DNA of 35,378 nt from Verrucomicrobiota bacterium (GTDB taxonomy: Bacteria; Verrucomicrobiota; Verrucomicrobiia; Opitutales; Opitutaceae): positions 1-35,378 of the forward strand of contig JANYDX010000176.1 in assembly GCA_025363395.1 (NCBI GenBank), read 5' to 3'. Within the stretch, counting starts at the first letter, position 1; each line of letters starts with the position of its first letter. A program made the translations under genes and the position numbers. The notes under the pieces were generated by a model. That model saw only the letters and a list, made by a program, of their open reading frames with translations, had not been told where the DNA came from and did no database searches. This document shows positions 2,324 to 34,271 of the stretch, in pieces.

Positions 2324-2357
2324 TACCCACAAATGTTTTTGAAACTTGCTTCCCCCC

Positions 2358-3341
2358 ATGACCATTGCCCGCCTTTGCGCTTCTGCGATTGAAATTCCTA
2401 ATCGCCCCCGAGTGTCGTCAACCTGGTCGAGCCGCATTTTTTTAGCATTGGTTTTCGGGACAGCACTGATGCAAGCGGCCTATGCCGGGCCCGCGGCCAG
2501 CCAGAACCGGACGTTCAAGTTTTCCATCCGTGACGAGGCGGGACAGCTGATTGAGAGTCAGGATGTGTCAGGTCTCCTTTCCAATTACGACTCAAGCACG
2601 GGTGATTTGAGTACGGTGCCGGTGGGGACTGCGCCGGGCAGTCTGCCCGGCGTGGTCGGCAATTGGGGCTGGTCAAATATTGATGTGACCAATGACCAGG
2701 TGATGGATCAAAAGATTCTCACCTGGCAAAGCATCGCCACGACGACGACTGCAAATGGGCTCGTGGCGCAATCGACCGTGCAACTCAAAGCCAACGGCAA
2801 CATCGATCCGACGATGACCTACAGTTTTTCGGCCAAGAACAATACGGCGGTGAATCAGACCTTCACCTTTTCCTATGGGGAATCCATCGTGCCTCCGGTT
2901 TCGGGAAATTATTTCATCAACGCCGACATCGCCGGCAGTGTGACCCGGGGGAACACCACGCAGAATGCGCAGATCACTCCGGTGCTCGGTGACTTTGACG
3001 GCGATGGCATCAGCGAAATTCAAACATTGAAGCTTTCCACCGATGGCGGCCTGACCTTTTTGAATGCCGGAGTGGATGTGGGAACCGCGCATACGTCGGC
3101 CTTTAAAACCAACCCGTTTGGAACCGATTATGCCGAGGCGTACGGCAATCTCAGCTCAATCAATTATTGGCAATTTGACGTCGCCTTCTCTTTGACGCCA
3201 AACAAAGACGCGACCGCTCTGTCCGGTTCCGCTGAAATCAGCGCGATTCCCGAGCCTTCGACATCAGCGATTATGCTCGGGGTGGCGTCACTCGCTTTGG
3301 TCGTGCGCTGCCGCCGGCCTCGGGTCGGTGCGGGTCAATGA
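2358..3341 (+). CDS. PEP-CTERM sorting-domain protein
   Basis: N-terminal hydrophobic export signal (IFLALVFGTALMQAAYAGPA) and C-terminal IPEPSTSAIMLGVASLALVVRCRRPR. Start could also be 2346. Confidence 0.8.
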   Translation: MTIARLCASAIEIPNRPRVSSTWSSRIFLALVFGTALMQAAYAGPAASQNRTFKFSIRDEAGQLIESQDVSGLLSNYDSSTGDLSTVPVGTAPGSLPGVVGNWGWSNIDVTNDQVMDQKILTWQSIATTTTANGLVAQSTVQLKANGNIDPTMTYSFSAKNNTAVNQTFTFSYGESIVPPVSGNYFINADIAGSVTRGNTTQNAQITPVLGDFDGDGISEIQTLKLSTDGGLTFLNAGVDVGTAHTSAFKTNPFGTDYAEAYGNLSSINYWQFDVAFSLTPNKDATALSGSAEISAIPEPSTSAIMLGVASLALVVRCRRPRVGAGQ

Positions 3342-3425: not shown

Positions 3426-5600
3426 TTAGCCGGCGGCACGCGCGGGTGCATCCTGCAGTTTTGGATCATAATATTCTTTGAAGGCCTTGCTGTTTGTATC
3501 CATGTAATAATAGGCCCCGGTGAGGCCGGCCTTCATGTCGTTCATCACGGCCCCAAAGACCGGAATGTTCGCCGAGCGGAGCCGCTGCGCGCAGCGCTGA
3601 ACTGCGCCGCGTTTCGCTCCGTTGAAACGGATCGTGTAGATCGCCCCGTCCATTAAAGGGAGGATGTTGAGGGCATCGCTGACCGCACCGAGTGGCGGAG
3701 TATCAAACAGCACGCGGTCGTAACGTTTGCCCAGTTCGGCGACCAGGGTTTCGAATTCCTTGCTGTTGAGCATGTGAATCGGGTTTTTGGCCCGGGCGCC
3801 AACCGTGATGACATCAAGATTGGGGTGGACGTTTTTCACGATGATCTCGTCCAGGGTGGCGGCGTTCGCGCAATAGTTGACCACGCCCTTGCCCACGTTC
3901 AGCCGGAATGACCGTTCGATATTTGGTTTACGCAGATCGCAATCGATGATGACCGTGCGCTGGCCTTGCGAGGCGAAGGTCAGCCCGAGATTCGTCGCGA
4001 TGAAAGATTTTCCTTCTCCCGGCAGCGTGCTGGTGACGAGGATTAGCTTTGCGTTGCGGCTTTCGTCATTGATGCGCAGCGTCGAATAGAGGGATAGAAA
4101 CGCTTCCGTCACCATGCGGTCGGCACCGTTCGAAACAATTTGGGCCTTGTCAGGTTGTTCCATCCGTTCAACGCGCGGGATGAGGCCCAGCAACGGCAGG
4201 CCCACCAGGGTTTCGACGTCAAAAGTGGTTTTTATTTTGTCGTCAATGGTTGCCAGGAGAAAGGCGAAGCTGAAACCAAGGAAGAGCCCTCCGAGCACAC
4301 CAAGGGCGAGATTGACGCCGACATTAGGCGAGATCGGGTTGGTGGGTTCGACGGCCCGATCGATGATCCGGGCGCTTTCCATCTCAATGCTACTGGTGAC
4401 GGAAGTTTCGCGCATCCGGGACATCATCGACTCCAGCAGCTGTTCGTTCACGCGGAATTCACGGTTTAGATTTTCATACTCCACTGCGGATTTATCCAAA
4501 TCCAATGACTTGGCTTCCTGATCGACCAGCGCCTTGCGTGCGCCTTCGTCATTCTGGAGGGCATTCTCATATTCGGACTTCACCGAGGTCGCGGCGGTAT
4601 CAAGCGCGATTTTCAATTCCTGTTCGGTTTGGGCGAGGCCGTTGATTGCTTCAATCAGTCGGGGGTGCTTGTCCTTGTAACGCTCCTGCAACTGCGCGAC
4701 GGCCAGCTTTTGGGTGGTAACTTGTAGACTCAACTGGGCCACCTTCGGCTGGGCGGTGACGAAAGGCAGCTCCGCGAGATCCCGTCCCGTTTTGCTCCAA
4801 TCCCGCACTTGGTTCCACCGCACTTCCGCTTCTTTCAAGCGCGAGTTGGTCGAGGTCGTCAGCATGTTCAGGGCTTTGAGTTTCTCGGTCACGATATCCT
4901 TGCTCTGCATCAGGGAAATCAGGTTTCCACGCTGCCGGAAGGTTTGCAGTGCGTTGGCAATCTCATCAACCCGCTTGCGTTGTTGATCGGCGCGATCCTT
5001 CAGGTCATCCACCGCCTTCAAGGACTCCTCGATGCGCAGGCGCGAGTTGTAGGCGATGTATTCAGATGCAAGCAGATTTGCCACGCGGGCCGCCATCTTC
5101 GGATTGGGGTGCTGGAATTGGATCAGGGTGATCAGCGTCATTCTTTGCGGGACGACTTTCCGGTGTAAAATGATTCCGGTGGCGCTCGGAGGTTCGCCGG
5201 AGCGGCTCTTGTACGGATCGACCAGGAGTTTGGTTTCCTCGGGCGTGAGCCGGGCAGCCACGTTCTGGGCGATCGCGATACTTTCTAGCACTTTGATCTG
5301 AGTATTGAAATCAGAGTCGCTGGTGACACTGCTCTCGACCACATCAGCCACGCGCAATACCTGGGGTCCGTGCTTGAGTACCTGAATGGAGGCGCTCCCG
5401 CCGTAGATCGGCGTCGTGAGAAAGGTGTAGGTTGCGGTCGCCAGCACTGTGAGGGCAAATACCGCCAACGCGTACCATTTGCGTTCGACCACCATGAGCC
5501 AGCTGTTCCGCAGAAAATGCTTTTCTTCGGCTTCGGTGTGATCGGAATCGGTTTCGCCAAAGGCGTTGTTGGAGCCCGAAGGCCGGGAAGAAGGTTTCAT
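3426..5600 (-). CDS. Exopolysaccharide chain-length / tyrosine autokinase (Wzc/GumC-type BY-kinase)
   Basis: N-terminal Wzz-type segment, long coiled-coil region, Walker A LVTSTLPGEGKSFIATNL, Walker A' VIIDCDLRKP, C-terminal Tyr-rich AYYYMD...EYYDP. ORF is open to a TTG at 5636; ATG at 5600 also plausible. Confidence 0.9.
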   Translation of the reverse strand: MKPSSRPSGSNNAFGETDSDHTEAEEKHFLRNSWLMVVERKWYALAVFALTVLATATYTFLTTPIYGGSASIQVLKHGPQVLRVADVVESSVTSDSDFNTQIKVLESIAIAQNVAARLTPEETKLLVDPYKSRSGEPPSATGIILHRKVVPQRMTLITLIQFQHPNPKMAARVANLLASEYIAYNSRLRIEESLKAVDDLKDRADQQRKRVDEIANALQTFRQRGNLISLMQSKDIVTEKLKALNMLTTSTNSRLKEAEVRWNQVRDWSKTGRDLAELPFVTAQPKVAQLSLQVTTQKLAVAQLQERYKDKHPRLIEAINGLAQTEQELKIALDTAATSVKSEYENALQNDEGARKALVDQEAKSLDLDKSAVEYENLNREFRVNEQLLESMMSRMRETSVTSSIEMESARIIDRAVEPTNPISPNVGVNLALGVLGGLFLGFSFAFLLATIDDKIKTTFDVETLVGLPLLGLIPRVERMEQPDKAQIVSNGADRMVTEAFLSLYSTLRINDESRNAKLILVTSTLPGEGKSFIATNLGLTFASQGQRTVIIDCDLRKPNIERSFRLNVGKGVVNYCANAATLDEIIVKNVHPNLDVITVGARAKNPIHMLNSKEFETLVAELGKRYDRVLFDTPPLGAVSDALNILPLMDGAIYTIRFNGAKRGAVQRCAQRLRSANIPVFGAVMNDMKAGLTGAYYYMDTNSKAFKEYYDPKLQDAPARAAG

Positions 5601-5632
5601 GAGAACAATAGCGGAGGAGGACGGCCGGTGAA

Positions 5633-6256
5633 TCAAAGGATCCGCTCGGGAACGAAAATGATGTCACCGTCCTGAATGGTTGAACGGTTGCTGGTATCGC
5701 CGGAAACGAGCTGGTCGGCATTGATCGTGAAATTCACGGTTTGCCCGTCGGCCTGAGTCCGGGTCAGGCTGACTTTATTGCGATTAGCCAGACGGGAGAA
5801 ACCGCCTGAACGTGCGATGGCATCCAGCAGCGTGAGATTTTTTTCCGGCGGCATCAATATCGAGCCGGGGGAATTCACCGCACCGAGAACATTGATGTTC
5901 CGCTGCGAATATTCCGTGACCGTGATGTTCAGCTGGGGATTGACCAGATAATCGCGCTGATAAAGCTCGGTGATGAGGGTCTCGGCATCGCGGACCGTGA
6001 GATCCCGCACATCAACAATCCCAATCAAGGGAACCACGATGGTGTGGTCCTGGGAAATGCGCAGATCGCGATCAAGTTCGGGTTCTTGAAAGACTTGGAT
6101 TTTAATCAAATCCATCGGCCGCAATTTGTAGGTAGCGAGTTGGTTGGCTGGCTTCGGGTCTTTGCGGGAGGCGTGTGCCGGGGTGACAAGCAGGGCACCG
6201 CCGAGTACAAGTAAGGCAGCGGCCGTCAGCGCAGAAGGGAGGGATGAATTTCGCAT
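5633..6256 (-). CDS. Polysaccharide export protein (Wza-like, Poly_export/SLBB)
   Basis: Signal peptide, then YKLRPMDLIKIQVFQEPELDRDLRISQDHTIVVPLIGIVDVRDLTVRDAETLI and SLBB-like segment NINVLGAVNSPGSILMPPEKNLTLLDAIARSGGFSRLANRNKVSLTR. Confidence 0.9.
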   Translation of the reverse strand: MRNSSLPSALTAAALLVLGGALLVTPAHASRKDPKPANQLATYKLRPMDLIKIQVFQEPELDRDLRISQDHTIVVPLIGIVDVRDLTVRDAETLITELYQRDYLVNPQLNITVTEYSQRNINVLGAVNSPGSILMPPEKNLTLLDAIARSGGFSRLANRNKVSLTRTQADGQTVNFTINADQLVSGDTSNRSTIQDGDIIFVPERIL

Positions 6257-9924: not shown

Positions 9925-10156
9925 GCGAGACTCGGAATGCGGATTGAAGCTTAAGCGCGCGGATCGGTTTCGTTTCGCAGGAAGGCAGGCCTGACTTTTG
10001 CAGAATTATCGGTGCAGGTTTTCGGTGGCAAAGCACGCGCGCGGTTTTTGCGTGGAGGGGGCTGCCATTGGGCCGTCACCTCCATTTAACTGGCCCGTAA
10101 CAAAAGCGATTCGATTGGGATGGTGCTCAGGGGAGAATTCTCGTTCTCCTCAACTC

Positions 10157-12313
10157 ATGACCCGCCCCATTTTCTTTCCCAATCTTGCTCTGCGGAGCCG
10201 GATCTTCCCGGTTGCTGCGTTGCTTGCGCTCATGGTGCAGCCGGTTTATGCCACTTCGTTTACGGTGAGCAGCGGCACTGATTCATCAGCGAAAACGCTG
10301 GGCACCGGGGCAGGACAAACCGGGGTCGTGAACAGTGGGGCCACGCTTTCTGTCAGCGGCGGCACCGACGCAGTGACGATCTCCGGTGACAACGCGACCC
10401 TCACCAATAGCGGGAACATCATCCAGACCGGCACCGGACGGGTGATTCGCGATAATACGGGCAAGGCGGGTTTGACGGTGACCAATAATGCCGGGGCACT
10501 GATGCAATCAGCGGATTCGGATGTCATCCAGCTGAACAAAACGCCCGCGAGTGTGACTTTGAATAATTATGGAACGATGACTTCGCTCAATGCCTCGAAG
10601 GGTGGATCACAGGCGGTTGATTTTACCGCGATTTTGTCGGGCGCTAACATCATCAATAATTTTTCCACGGGTCTCATGCAAGCGTCCGAAGCCGATGCGG
10701 TACGTCCAGGGGTGGGCGGCGTGGTAAACAATTATGGTACCATCAAAGCGACCTCCACCTCTGGAAGCAGCAGTGACGGCATCGATGCCCAAACGAATAC
10801 GGCCACCAGCATCACCAATTTTGGAACCAGCCTCATTGAGGGCGCACGCCACGGCATCACGGGTGGCAATGTCCTCATTGCCGTCAACAGCGGTGCCTAC
10901 ACCATGAATGTGACCAACAATTCCGGAGGCTCGATCAGGGGAAATAACGGTGCCGGCCTTAATATCGACGGAATCAACAAGAACGAAGTCGTGACGGTGA
11001 TCAATGGCGGCGCCATTACCGGCAACGGTGTGACCGGCGACGGTGATGGCGTCGATGTCGATGGCCTCATCAACCTCACGAACACCGGCATTATCCGGTC
11101 GGTTAACTCATTCAGCTCCTCGACACCCGCGCAGAGCGAGGGTGTCACCGTGGGCGGAGGGACCATCGTTAATTCCGGCACCATCGAGGGTTTGGTTGCG
11201 GCCGGAAATAATAACGCGGTCGGTCGCGGAATTACCATTGCGGGCATAGATACCAGCGGCACGCCGGAGCCCATTTATGCCGCCACCACGATTACGAATC
11301 AATCGGGCGGTCTGATTCGCGGGCAGTCGGATTCCGGGATTGCGGTGGGCGGTGCGGCCAGTGGTTTTACCGTCACGATCAACAACGAGGCCGGCGCCAC
11401 GATTCGAGGCGGAGGTGTTACCAATGCCGCGATCCTCACCGGTGCGGACAACGACACGATTAATAACGCGGGCATCATCGACGGACTGGCCAGTGGCAAA
11501 GCAATCGATCTCGGCGCCGGCAATGATGCGCTCAACATCATCGGTGGCTCGGCCAGCATTGTGGGGAATATTTCCGGCGGGACGGGCACGAATGCATTGA
11601 CCATTGATCCCGGCACTGGCGGCACCTTCAGCTACAATGGCGCGATTTCGAATTTCACCAGCGCGCAAATCAAGAGCGGAACCGTGAAACTCTTCGGGGC
11701 CAGTCTCTATTCCGGCACCACCACTATTTCCGGTGGGACACTGTTTGCCCGGAACCTGAGCGGTAGTGCAACGGGCACCGGAGATGTGGTCATTAAGAAT
11801 TTTGGCACGCTGGCGGGCGATGGCCGAATCAGCGGCAACGTGAACGTGGAGGCCGGCGGTTTCATCACTCCGGGGGATGGCGTTGGTTCACTTTTAATCG
11901 GGGGAAATTTGAACTTGGTTGATTCCTCCCGGTTTCTATTCGAGCTCGGCTCGAATGCAGCCTCTTCGGATCAGCTGACGATTGGTGGTGCGTTGATTTT
12001 TTCCGGGTCGGGCCAATCGATCTTCGATTTTTCGAACAATGGCATCGGGCTCGGTACTTACCGCCTGCTTAATTTTGGCAGTGCCGCCGGCGTTAATCTC
12101 GCAAATTTTGTGATCGGCACCCACGACGGATTTTCCGGCAATTTGGTGATGGATGGGACTTCCTTGTCGCTCGAGGTGACGGCGATTCCCGAGCCCTCCA
12201 CCAGTGCAGTGCTTTTGAGCGGGATTATATTTTGCGGCGTGCTCGGTTTGCGCACAAGGCGCGGCAAGATCGGCGTTTTGAAAAACCAGGCCCAAGCTTC
12301 CCGGTCATTTTAG
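10157..12313 (+). CDS. PEP-CTERM protein with autotransporter-passenger-like beta-helix repeats
   Basis: Signal peptide (FPVAALLALMVQPVYATS), repeated N/G/T-rich beta-helix segments, segment SGTVKLFGASLYSGTTTISGGTLFARN resembling autotransporter-associated beta-strand repeats, and C-terminal AIPEPSTSAVLLSGIIFCGVLGLRTRRGK. Confidence 0.85.
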   Translation: MTRPIFFPNLALRSRIFPVAALLALMVQPVYATSFTVSSGTDSSAKTLGTGAGQTGVVNSGATLSVSGGTDAVTISGDNATLTNSGNIIQTGTGRVIRDNTGKAGLTVTNNAGALMQSADSDVIQLNKTPASVTLNNYGTMTSLNASKGGSQAVDFTAILSGANIINNFSTGLMQASEADAVRPGVGGVVNNYGTIKATSTSGSSSDGIDAQTNTATSITNFGTSLIEGARHGITGGNVLIAVNSGAYTMNVTNNSGGSIRGNNGAGLNIDGINKNEVVTVINGGAITGNGVTGDGDGVDVDGLINLTNTGIIRSVNSFSSSTPAQSEGVTVGGGTIVNSGTIEGLVAAGNNNAVGRGITIAGIDTSGTPEPIYAATTITNQSGGLIRGQSDSGIAVGGAASGFTVTINNEAGATIRGGGVTNAAILTGADNDTINNAGIIDGLASGKAIDLGAGNDALNIIGGSASIVGNISGGTGTNALTIDPGTGGTFSYNGAISNFTSAQIKSGTVKLFGASLYSGTTTISGGTLFARNLSGSATGTGDVVIKNFGTLAGDGRISGNVNVEAGGFITPGDGVGSLLIGGNLNLVDSSRFLFELGSNAASSDQLTIGGALIFSGSGQSIFDFSNNGIGLGTYRLLNFGSAAGVNLANFVIGTHDGFSGNLVMDGTSLSLEVTAIPEPSTSAVLLSGIIFCGVLGLRTRRGKIGVLKNQAQASRSF

Positions 12314-29972: not shown

Positions 29973-32900
29973 ATGGCGCTTATAATGTCCCGTCCCAAGA
30001 AACCCTGGCCTTTCCGGATCGAGTATCCCTCCGAGTTGCCCATCAGCGGCCGGGCGGACGAGATCATTGCGGCCATCCGGGATAATCAGGTGCTGATCCT
30101 GGCGGGTGAGACGGGCTCGGGCAAAACCACGCAAATTCCCAAAATGTGCCTGGTGGCGGGTTGCGGTGAGCGGGGAAAAATCGCCTGTACGCAACCGCGC
30201 CGCGTGGCAGCGACCTCGGTGGCGCGCCGTGTGGCCGAGGAACTCAATGTCCAGCTCGGCCGGGAAGTCGGCTGCAAGATTCGTTTTGCGGATCAGACCT
30301 CGGGGGCGACCGTTATCAAGTTCATGACCGACGGTATGCTGCTCGCCGAGCTGCAGGCTGATCCGGAGTTGCGCGAGTACGATACGATCATCGTGGACGA
30401 AGCGCATGAGCGTTCATTGAACATCGATTTCATCCTCGGGCATCTGCGCCGTCTGCGCGGGCGGCGGCCCGAGCTGAAAATTGTCATCACCTCGGCGACG
30501 ATTGACACGGAGGCCTTCTCCAAGGCGTTCGACAACGCGCCGATCATCGAGGTTTCTGGCCGGGTTTATCCGGTGGAGGTGATTTATTCGCCGCTGGATG
30601 AGATGAAGGAGGAAGAAGATAGGGCGGCGGGTCCCGTCGCTGCCGGTGAGCGGCGCGGAGCGGAGTCCACGCCCTACCCAAAAAAAGGGCGGGCCGAAGA
30701 CTTCACTTATCTGGATGCGGCGGTGGAGGCGGTCGAGCGGGTGTTGCTCGAGAGTTCGCAAGGCGACATCCTGGTGTTTCTGCCGACGGAGCGGGACATC
30801 CGGGAAATCCGCGATCTGTTGGAAGGCCGTTCGCTCGGGCACATCGAGGTTGTGCCGCTCTTCGGCCGCCTGACCAACGCCGAGCAGCAGCGCGTGTTCG
30901 CTTCCAGCCAGCAGCGCAAAATCATTGTCGCGACCAATATCGCCGAGACGTCTCTGACGATCCCCGGCATCCGGTTCGTCATTGATACGGGCCTGGCGCG
31001 GTTCAGTCGCTACACGCCGCAAAGTCGCACGCGCCGGTTGCCGGTCGAGCCCGTGTCACAGAGCAGCGCTGACCAGCGCAAGGGTCGCTGCGGCCGCGTG
31101 AGCGATGGCGTCTGCATCCGGCTTTATTCCGAGCAGGACTATCTCGCCCGCCCGCGTTTCACGCAGCCGGAAATTCAACGCAGCAATCTGGCGGATGTCA
31201 TTCTCCGGATGAAGGCCTTCGGGCTGGGTGACATTGAGGAGTTTCCATTCCTGAACGCGCCGCCCGCCAAGGGGATTCGCGCCGGCTACGGCCTGCTGCA
31301 CGAATTAGGCGCCATCGATGATGCCGGTGTGCTGACGGATATTGGACGCGAGCTGGCGCATCTGCCCGTGGACCCGACGGTCGGCCGGATGATTTTGCAG
31401 GCGCAGACGGAGAAGGCCATGCGCGAGGTGCTGATCATCGCGGCAGCGCTGAGCATTCAGGATCCGCGCGAACGTCCGCTGGACCAGCAGCAGAAAGCTG
31501 ACACGGCGCACCGGCGGTTCAATCACCCGGATTCCGATTTTCTCGCCCTGTTGGCCATCTGGGAGGATTACCACACCGAGTTCGAGAAGCTGTCGCTCGG
31601 CAAGCTGCGGAAATTTTGCACGGCGCATTTCCTTTCGTTCACGCGGATGCGCGAGTGGCGCGACGTGCACAGCCAGCTTGAGGACACGCTGCGGGATCGC
31701 ACGGGGTTTATGCGGACATCAGTGTATGATGGGACGGGCGAAGCGGTGTCATCGGCGAAAAGACAATCCGCCCCGGCCACCGAAATGGATTTCAAACCCG
31801 GTACTCCCGCCTATCGTTCGATTCATCGCTCCATCCTGGCCGGACTGCTCGGCAATATCGCCACGCGGACGGAGGAAGGCGACTATCATGCGGCGCATGA
31901 TCGCCGGGTGGGAATTTTCCCAGGCTCGGCGTTGTTTGAGCGGAAGGAGCAGTCGAGAAGCGATCCGCGAAAAAATGTGACCGGGGGCCATGCGGCACCC
32001 GCCAAAGCCAAGGTGGCGAAGTGGCTGATGGCGGCGGAAATCCTGGAAACAGCGCGGCTGTACGCCCGCACCTGCGCGCGCATCGATCCGCATTGGGTGC
32101 TCGATTTGGGCGAGCACCTGATCCGCGTGGCGCACAGCGAACCATTTTGGAATCCTGAGGCGGGACGGGTGCTCGTGAAGGAACGCCGCCGGCTGTATAA
32201 TCTCGAACTGGAAACGCGTTCAGCTAGCTACGGGAAAATCAATCCGGTGCATGCGACGGAAATTTTCATCCGCGAGGGACTCGTGGGTGATACGATCACG
32301 TGGCCGTTTGATTTTATTGCACACAACCGCCGGGTGCGGGAGCAGACGGAGAGCGTCCTCACCCGCACGCGCAGCTCGGGCTACATGAATTTGGACGAAG
32401 CCGTGTACCAATTTTATGCGCGAGTATTCATGCCCGCAGGTAGGGCGGGCACTCCGTTGACCGCCGTCCGGCCGGGATCCGACTCCGCCAAGGCTTCGAC
32501 GGACAAGACCGGGTCAACGCCCCACCTCGGCATCAGCAGCGTGCCTGAACTGATTGATTTCGTGCGGCACCAGCAGACGACGAATCCGAAATTTCTTTTC
32601 ATGGGCGAAAACGATCTGCGTCCGGAGGTGGAGGCGGAGCATGACGCGGAAGCTTTCCCCGCGGCAATCCCGGTGGACAATTGCGTGCTGCCGCTGGCCT
32701 ATGCGTACCAGCCCGGGCAGGAGGGCGACGGGGTGACCTTACGCGTGACTTTGGCCGAGGCGGAGGCGCTGAATCCCGCCATGCTCGACTGGGCGATCCC
32801 GGGGCATTTGACGGAGAAAGTGGAACTGATGCTCAAGGCGCTGCCGAAGGAACAGCGGCGCGACCTGATCCCGTTGACGGAGACGGCGCAGAAGCTTACG

Positions 32901-34271
32901 CGCGATCTGGCGTTGCTGAGCGCGCGCGCGAAGCAGCCGACGCTGGCGGAGGCGCTGGCGGAATTGCTGTCGCCGCGGCTGGGAGTGCGGATCGATCCGG
33001 CGCTGTGGAGCGACAAGTTGTTTCCCGATCACCTGCGGGTGCGCGTGGAGGTCGTGGACAACCAGGAGAAGGTGCTCGGCGCCAGCCGTGATCTCACGGA
33101 AATTCACGCGCAACTCGACACCCGCCAGCGGGACGTGAGCAAGCATGCGTCGGCGGTGGACAACAGCACCTGGCGCGCGGCGCGGTCGAAATGGGAAGGT
33201 GAGCCCGCCGCCGAATGGAAATTTGGCGACCTGCCGGTGCAAATTGTCGTGAGCGAATTTCATGGCGTGCCGGTGCTGGCTTACCCGGGGCTGAAGGCGA
33301 TGCCGGCGGGTGTGGCGGTACGTTTGTCGGCGACACGCGAGGAAGCCGTCACGATGACGTGCGAGGGATTGCGCAAGCTGTTCGAGATGCAGTTGCGCTT
33401 CGATCTCGGCTGGCTCGAAAGGGATCTCAAGGCGCTGCGGCTCCTGGGGACGCTCGCCGTGACGCTCACCACGCCAGACGCCTTGCAAAAAGACGCGTTG
33501 GAATCGATCCGCCGTTGGGTCTGCGATCCGGCACGGGTGATGGGTCCGGCGGCGAGTGTGACGGGGATGAGTGCGGACGAACGGCGGGTCCGGGATAACG
33601 CGCCCGACCTGACCGCGGCGCGATTCGCCTCGGCGCTGATGGCGGCGAAAGATGATTTGCGCGGACTGGTGCCCAAGCTCGGTGATTGGTTGAAGGAAGT
33701 ATTTACGCTGCGGCTGGCGTTGCAGACCTCGAAGCAGTCCTATCCCGGGATGGATGATGATCTCGCGGAATTGCTGCCGCCGGATTTTCTGCGTCGAATG
33801 CCGTATATCCGGGTGCAGCATTTGCCACGTTATTTACGCGGTATGCAGATGCGGGCGGAACGGTGGAAGCGCGATGCGGCCAAGGATGCGATGCGCGCGA
33901 AGGAGTTGGCCCCGATGACCGCGGCGGCGCGGAAAATGACTGGAGGGTTGGCGACCGCGGCCGGCGCCAAAACGGGTCAGGGCAACTCGCCCACCAACCG
34001 AGATGACGCGGTCGAGGACTTCCGCTGGCTGGTGGAAGAGTTTCGGGTGAGTCTGTTTGCGCAGGAACTGGGCACGGCCGAGCCAGTGTCGGTGGTGCGG
34101 CTGCAGCGGGCGCTGGAAGAGATGGGAAAGGGTGGCGCGGCGGGGCAACCCGGTCAGGAAGACCCGCGGAGCGGAGCGGAGTCCCCGCCCTACCTCAAAC
34201 CTTCGACTGCGGTGAAGAAAGCCGCACCCCTCAAGAGTCTTGGGTCCCTCGACCAGCTCTTCCGGAAATAA
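29973..34271 (+). CDS. hrpA: ATP-dependent DEAH-box RNA helicase HrpA
   Basis: LAGETGSGKTTQIPKMCL, CTQPRRVAATSVARRVAEEL, DEAH, SATIDTEAFSKAF, ATNIAETSLTIPGIRFVIDTG; ~1430 aa with long C-terminal HrpA-type region. Confidence 0.96.
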   Translation: MALIMSRPKKPWPFRIEYPSELPISGRADEIIAAIRDNQVLILAGETGSGKTTQIPKMCLVAGCGERGKIACTQPRRVAATSVARRVAEELNVQLGREVGCKIRFADQTSGATVIKFMTDGMLLAELQADPELREYDTIIVDEAHERSLNIDFILGHLRRLRGRRPELKIVITSATIDTEAFSKAFDNAPIIEVSGRVYPVEVIYSPLDEMKEEEDRAAGPVAAGERRGAESTPYPKKGRAEDFTYLDAAVEAVERVLLESSQGDILVFLPTERDIREIRDLLEGRSLGHIEVVPLFGRLTNAEQQRVFASSQQRKIIVATNIAETSLTIPGIRFVIDTGLARFSRYTPQSRTRRLPVEPVSQSSADQRKGRCGRVSDGVCIRLYSEQDYLARPRFTQPEIQRSNLADVILRMKAFGLGDIEEFPFLNAPPAKGIRAGYGLLHELGAIDDAGVLTDIGRELAHLPVDPTVGRMILQAQTEKAMREVLIIAAALSIQDPRERPLDQQQKADTAHRRFNHPDSDFLALLAIWEDYHTEFEKLSLGKLRKFCTAHFLSFTRMREWRDVHSQLEDTLRDRTGFMRTSVYDGTGEAVSSAKRQSAPATEMDFKPGTPAYRSIHRSILAGLLGNIATRTEEGDYHAAHDRRVGIFPGSALFERKEQSRSDPRKNVTGGHAAPAKAKVAKWLMAAEILETARLYARTCARIDPHWVLDLGEHLIRVAHSEPFWNPEAGRVLVKERRRLYNLELETRSASYGKINPVHATEIFIREGLVGDTITWPFDFIAHNRRVREQTESVLTRTRSSGYMNLDEAVYQFYARVFMPAGRAGTPLTAVRPGSDSAKASTDKTGSTPHLGISSVPELIDFVRHQQTTNPKFLFMGENDLRPEVEAEHDAEAFPAAIPVDNCVLPLAYAYQPGQEGDGVTLRVTLAEAEALNPAMLDWAIPGHLTEKVELMLKALPKEQRRDLIPLTETAQKLTRDLALLSARAKQPTLAEALAELLSPRLGVRIDPALWSDKLFPDHLRVRVEVVDNQEKVLGASRDLTEIHAQLDTRQRDVSKHASAVDNSTWRAARSKWEGEPAAEWKFGDLPVQIVVSEFHGVPVLAYPGLKAMPAGVAVRLSATREEAVTMTCEGLRKLFEMQLRFDLGWLERDLKALRLLGTLAVTLTTPDALQKDALESIRRWVCDPARVMGPAASVTGMSADERRVRDNAPDLTAARFASALMAAKDDLRGLVPKLGDWLKEVFTLRLALQTSKQSYPGMDDDLAELLPPDFLRRMPYIRVQHLPRYLRGMQMRAERWKRDAAKDAMRAKELAPMTAAARKMTGGLATAAGAKTGQGNSPTNRDDAVEDFRWLVEEFRVSLFAQELGTAEPVSVVRLQRALEEMGKGGAAGQPGQEDPRSGAESPPYLKPSTAVKKAAPLKSLGSLDQLFRK
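30620..30676. repeat. Palindromic GC-rich element inside hrpA, copy 1 (57 bp)
   Basis: Terminal inverted repeat TAGGGCG (30620-30626)/CGCCCTA (30670-30676), inner stem CGCT-gccggtg-AGCG. Contains GCGGAGCGGAGTCCACGCCCTACC, shared with the copy at 34171-34194. Confidence 0.65.
32431..32519. repeat. Composite of two palindromic elements inside hrpA
   Basis: TGCCCGC-aggtagg-GCGGGCA (32431-32451), with GGTAGGGCGGGCACTCCG (32439-32456) the reverse complement of the other copies (17/18). Then CGTTGACC (32455-32462)/GGTCAACG (32512-32519) with nested GTCCG (32466-32470)/CGGAC (32500-32504). Confidence 0.65.
34139..34194. repeat. Palindromic GC-rich element inside hrpA, third site
   Basis: GGCGGGG (34139-34145)/CCCCGCC (34183-34189); contains GCGGAGCGGAGTCCCCGCCCTACC (34171-34194), 23/24 to the first copy. 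Confidence 0.65.

Follow-up and report, generated by a model that had tools for sequence, protein, structure and literature searches.

Three segments of the hrpA gene analyzed here are very probably copies of GTAG-headed REP/REPIN elements that transposed into the gene and were kept since they left the protein unbroken. The window, that is, the whole stretch of 35,378 nucleotides that was analyzed, belongs to an Opitutaceae genome (G000) of 4.35 Mb in 556 contigs, 88% complete, and hrpA occupies positions 29973..34271 of its forward strand. The open reading frame, Pfam domains and PDB matches identify the product as a DEAH-box RNA helicase of 1432 amino acids, with DEAD, Helicase_C, HA2, OB_NTP_bind (OB-fold) and DUF3418 domains and with the E. 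coli HrpA chains as best PDB matches (E 8e-237). A single open frame of 1432 codons spans all three palindrome copies. Elsewhere in the window, the ORFs at 1566-2120, 2346-3341 and 9998-12313 end in a PEP-CTERM-like signal (IPEPST, a hydrophobic stretch and Arg), and these putative PEP-CTERM ORFs adjoin genes at 3426-6256 whose translations suggest Wzc/Wza-like polysaccharide export.

The pattern GGTAGGGCGKGSRCTCCG matched the window exactly three times even when three mismatches were allowed, against 0.24 matches expected, and none of 100 shuffled sequences reached three. The original prediction had placed three copies inside one hrpA frame, two of them encoding GAESTPY and GAESPPY in a shared reading frame, and the positions and strands, the pattern search and the translations all agreed with it. 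Copy 1 (30618..30678, minus strand), defined by pattern matches and orthologue comparison, is an in-frame head-to-head REP doublet made of a type-1 head at 30661-30678 (-) and a type-3 head at about 30618-30635 (+), and lies in the linker joining RecA1 and RecA2, at residues about 213-240. Copy 2 (32439..32529, plus strand), also in frame, consists of a type-1 head at 32439-32456 and a degenerate right arm ending near CGCCCCACCT, and covers residues about 821-849; a possible second repeat, CTTCGCCAAGGCTACGG-like with 4 mismatches and of family D, is nested in it at 32482..32502 (+), and two relatives (G010 and G012) likewise have the family-D repeat nested here. Copy 3 (34157..34194, minus strand) is a single in-frame type-1 REP with its head at 34177-34194, in the C-terminal tail of HrpA (residues about 1390-1410). 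The alignment of orthologues points to two further remnants on the plus strand: a probable decayed family-B half-element at 31983..32006, which reads GGHAAP at residue ~671 where other species have GGRVPP and where 7 relatives carry a family-B head, and a probable decayed insert at 33528..33602, corresponding to residues ~1186-1210.

Each copy had been predicted to form part of an inverted-repeat structure. This was true of copy 1, a recognisable head-to-head doublet with a fold z-score of -1.35 against shuffles, but overstated for the other two: the arms of copy 2 are kept but interrupted, and copy 3 amounts to little more than a single right-hand REP. The folds of copies 2 and 3 were no better than those of shuffles, and none of the three window copies folded strongly better, so that they are partly decayed, being either older or further degraded than the best copies in the genome. 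Palindromy was clear in intergenic copies and in the HrpA inserts of relatives.

Alignment of the genomic copies defined the family-1 unit as GGTAG followed by an 8-bp stem and a 6-nt loop in intergenic copies. Changes in the stem compensate each other (CGG..CCG, GGC..GCC, GCG..CGC), and the loop is conserved. Two such units placed head to head give a long hairpin, as in the intergenic copy at 711-805 of locus L004 (z -3.56), and inverted pairs of other families (BB, EE and FF) were found in the relative G013. These paired hairpins with GTAG heads have the structure of REPINs, the paired form of GTAG REPs: an unpaired GTAG or GTGG head precedes a GC-rich hairpin, the units form inverted doublets, copies are many and dispersed, their placement is mostly extragenic, and a RAYT gene is present in the genome.

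The original prediction, which proposed an in-frame palindromic insertion system by analogy to Rickettsia palindromic elements, implied that further copies should exist in the genome, and they do. With up to 2 mismatches we found 28 matches in the own genome against 5 for the reversed control, and a slightly wider family-1 pattern with at most 1 mismatch gave 22 against 0; the broad pattern GGTAGGGCGNNNASTCCS with 2 mismatches was uninformative (103 matches against 91 in the control). Family 1 reached up to 64 matches in the genomes of relatives, and families A, B and C up to 84, 132 and 122 in genomes of the genus, with controls near zero, so that each of the four forms a repeat population there. 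A chance similarity of GC-rich linker codons, involving no mobile element, could appeal to the high G+C alone; it is rejected by the shuffles and the near-zero reversed-pattern controls, and palindromic inserts of several families also speak against it, which leaves it a vanishingly small probability.

HrpA was aligned across 17 genomes of the same genus and several outgroups, with E. coli HrpA added through its PDB match. The HrpA proteins of two genus members are identical to those of CAIUGM010000001 (a Verrucomicrobia MAG) and JANYDW010000040 (an Oleiharenicola MAG). In the alignment the three linkers are gaps for the outgroups, for E. coli HrpA and for some members of the genus, and clean insertions elsewhere, including the three window segments when compared with same-genus orthologues. 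The segments are absent from about five species of the genus; that of copy 1 is missing from several genus members and outgroups, and the copy 2 site is empty in G001, G003, G004, G007, G015 and the outgroups. Multi-copy GTAG-headed head-to-head hairpins, inserted cleanly and as whole codons, are directly supported. A conserved protein linker encoded by unrelated DNA, an outcome against which the original prediction was to be checked, was rejected, since homologues are either empty or carry other palindromes at these places. The further claim that the copies lie in non-conserved linkers agrees with these orthologues. In the AlphaFold model pLDDT falls below 50 at the insert cores (residues 230-242 and 825-849) and at residues 659-663, and the folded core is mostly at 80-97. 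The insert sites are thus predicted loops, given the low pLDDT at their cores and the gaps relative to the solved E. coli HrpA.

The same linkers are occupied in different species by different families of palindromes, unrelated to one another and headed by GTAG or GTGG. Site 1 holds family A in G013 and G017, family 1 in G000 and G010, and family D in G011. The site at residues 821-846 holds family B in G013, G010 and G012, family C in G005, G009, G011 and G017, family 1 in G000 and family A in G018. At residues 1192-1207 we found family A (G013), C (G017) and 1 (G012), and at the C-terminal site relatives carry family A (G013, G017, G018) or 1 (G012). Furthermore, the RAYT-less species G002 retains a decayed in-frame family-A insert at site 1, whose alignment score of 55 compares with a maximum of 34 among 1000 shuffles. 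The low-confidence linker position, the different families in each linker and the decay in a transposase-less lineage are all observed directly. On the HrpA tree, each site switches between presence and absence at least 5 times, and parsimony requires at least 9 changes of family identity at each of sites 1 and 3.

Junctions are often common to different families, to the nucleotide, which raises the possibility that a resident element attracts newer ones, or gives way to them, at a fixed nucleotide position. This might occur by RAYT re-insertion at the GTAG/CTAC ends or by conversion between elements sharing GGTAGGGC...GCCCTACC ends. The right junction at site ~1192 is CTACC|nnCTGACC or TTGACC in families A (G013), 1 (G012) and C (G017) alike, and the left junction of A and 1 is likewise identical, at ATG|GGTAGGGCG. 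At site 821-846 the insert ends beside the same GGCATC/GGAATC whichever of families 1, A, B and C occupies it. The nested repeats and the family changes demanded by parsimony point in the same direction. However, codon-level constraint on a short linker could by itself yield similar junctions, the comparisons are few, and no transposition intermediate was seen, so that we hold such reuse of an address to be possible but doubtful. Its stronger form, in which an occupied linker becomes a permanent docking point where later families replace earlier ones at the same nucleotide and the peptide changes with them, is rather unlikely.

The mosaic of filled and empty linkers could also be produced, with few transpositions, by local homologous recombination between species that moves insert-bearing linker alleles. 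The filled alleles at site ~1192 are flanked by DxxRM..LTKxxF and most empty ones by R.V.PLHA..F, and sister pairs differ in their inserts (G013/G004, G017/G011, G012/G007), as such exchange would predict, but the same sister pairs come out of the trees built from the N- and C-terminal parts (in the C-terminal tree G017/G011 and G012/G007 with good support, G013/G004 weakly), so that any exchange must have been very short. The differing families would be left unexplained, and we judge this route unlikely as the source of the mosaic. Whole-gene or large-block recombination is unsupported, the two trees giving the same pairs. The flanks of residues ~1186-1210 differ even between sister species, where very local recombination or loss of an insert is possible.

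Transposition of REP elements calls attention to the RAYT genes. Genes with a PF01797 (Y1_Tnp/RAYT-type) domain were found in 16 of 21 genomes of the genus, and four of the five RAYT-less genomes have zero copies of all four tested families (1, A, B and C). At least one of these families was present in 16/16 genomes with a RAYT and in 1/5 without (Fisher p 8e-4; treating G001 as empty gives 4e-3). The test ignores phylogeny, although G002 and G006 are sister genomes, and two of the genomes it covers are 69-80% complete. The exception, G029 (91% complete), has REP families, with 18 family-B matches, and no detected PF01797 gene, which may reflect either recent RAYT loss or an assembly gap. The search for a RAYT proposed in the original prediction was successful in part: the own genome has three Y1_Tnp (PF01797) genes with RAYT-like products of ~320 aa, but no family-1 REPs were found flanking them, and none of these proteins is adjacent to an intact GTAG hairpin. 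In G013 (C1:1775323-1775598 and 1185314-1185562), G003 (L159), G005 (L167) and G015 (L169), RAYTs have cognate GTAG or GTGG hairpins of other families, such as GTAGGGCGGGATCACCGTATCCCGCC, in inverted orientation on their flanks, which is the classical layout; the genus also harbours several more REP families side by side. Since no RAYT was found flanked by family 1, we file it as a GTAG REP family without an assigned cognate RAYT. By analogy with established REP-RAYT systems, we infer that its elements would be mobilised by a RAYT, a Y1/HUH REP-associated tyrosine transposase, supplied in trans.

The 28 elements of the own genome comprise 16 intergenic ones, 8 touching gene ends, 3 in hrpA and 1 in mutL, a count that covers the loci found by the pattern and not a full unbiased census. 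The mutL element is a decayed family-1 palindrome (ARAPTMARTEFAPYPP; contig C165 of G000, locus L025, about 1490-1508) in the linker between the N-terminal domain and the C-terminal (dimerisation) domain. Gene calls came from our own hexamer model, which missed MutL; it was found by a spanning-ORF check and Pfam. In the complete relative G013, 11 of 65 elements in 800 kb were intragenic, so that 54 of 65 were intergenic or at gene edges, compared with 24 of 28 in the own genome. Five of the 11 lie in HrpA; further in-frame inserts occur in an RlmD-like rRNA methyltransferase (C1:1675571-1676971, with two), a RecD-like helicase (1182865-1185207), a TatD DNase (1229781-1230617) and a 425-aa protein (1768271-1769545), with one questionable, the names other than TatD and MutL being a reading of the sequence. 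Against uniform placement, the HrpA clusters have Poisson p values of about 3e-6 in the own genome and 3e-5 in G013. In G003, which has the same families, 1 of 21 elements in a 400 kb sample was intragenic and no element pair was found in HrpA, so that the hotspot is not uniform across the genus; the HrpA of G003 carries a family-B half with 3 mismatches at residue ~671.

Families differ in how often they lie inside genes. None of 27 elements of families E and F lay inside genes in the G013 sample, against 11 of 38 for families 1, A, B and C. Pair lengths of E and F are seldom divisible by 3, those of A, B, C and 1 are mostly codon multiples where measurable (single-REP lengths were assumed, so that the length argument rests mainly on B, E and F), and families A, B, C and 1 have several open frames. 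One F-type pair, 76 nt by its heads, was called inside a gene in the G003 sample. The simplest mechanism would be scattered insertion followed by selection, which would purge inserts that frameshift, add a stop or disrupt folded parts of the protein. Because disruptive inserts would be removed, survivors would gather in intergenic DNA and, within multidomain proteins such as HrpA, MutL and the RecD-like, TatD and RlmD-like proteins, in a few linkers that tolerate them. HrpA would be a hotspot because it offers five or six tolerant linkers, and possibly also because a resident element improves the target, an effect that could add to the repeated use of one position. Most likely the encoded peptides, for instance GRAGTP and GAESPPY, lack any function themselves and act only as passive, disordered spacers. 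Selection for the peptides, or for RNA hairpins acting in mRNA regulation or helicase tuning, along the lines proposed for repair genes tagged with REPs, would account for the strong enrichment in one gene, and the other targets are also helicase, repair and RNA-modification proteins, a trend that matches an earlier report (PMC3733652). Five genus members and the outgroups nevertheless lack the main inserts, whose sequences are unrelated and decaying and map to low-confidence loops, and we consider a functional role very improbable.

In-frame intragenic GTAG REPs were already reported in 2013 (BMC Genomics; PMC3733652), so that the case in the window extends a known phenomenon. In that report, the richest genome is that of Opitutus terrae, of the same family (Opitutaceae) as the source of the window, where the targets include RNA helicases, uvrA and DNA ligase; the elements encode 20-30 aa, a gene such as uvrA can receive multiple insertions, and two Xanthomonas species carry different REPs at nearly the same place in recB. 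Those REPs and ours have in common GTAG hairpins, head-to-head dimers, several coexisting families, in-frame placement and helicase or repair targets. Relative to the main text of that report, only the present case follows one gene across a genus, with five or six linker sites, at least four families, shared junctions, empty orthologues and decayed inserts in a RAYT-less species. With the REPIN/RAYT system (PMC3116915; PMC2817692) it shares inverted REP doublets forming a long hairpin, a presence that tracks RAYT, and some genus RAYTs flanked by cognate inverted REPs; classical REPINs are extragenic, whereas here there are intragenic copies and a family 1 for which no flanking RAYT was found. 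The Rickettsia precedent was apt for palindromes inserted in frame at tolerated gene positions, but the GTAG-REP superfamily is the closer one: Rickettsia palindromic elements, as described in the same report (PMC3733652), are a CGTC-tagged or longer class with no dedicated transposase; they are lineage-specific and unrelated in sequence, and the GTAG or GTGG heads read from our copies set these apart from the CGTC tag. That different families reuse identical coding addresses throughout a genus we did not find described in the literature consulted, the nearest precedent being the Xanthomonas recB case.

Comparison of orthologues carries the creation of new in-frame protein segments by REP elements beyond a single genome. 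The hrpA gene of this Opitutaceae genus, with its many sites, several families, empty alleles and RAYT-less lineages, is a tractable gene in which two questions become testable: at which places RAYTs insert REPs, and to what extent target choice or selection accounts for the extragenic bias of these elements.
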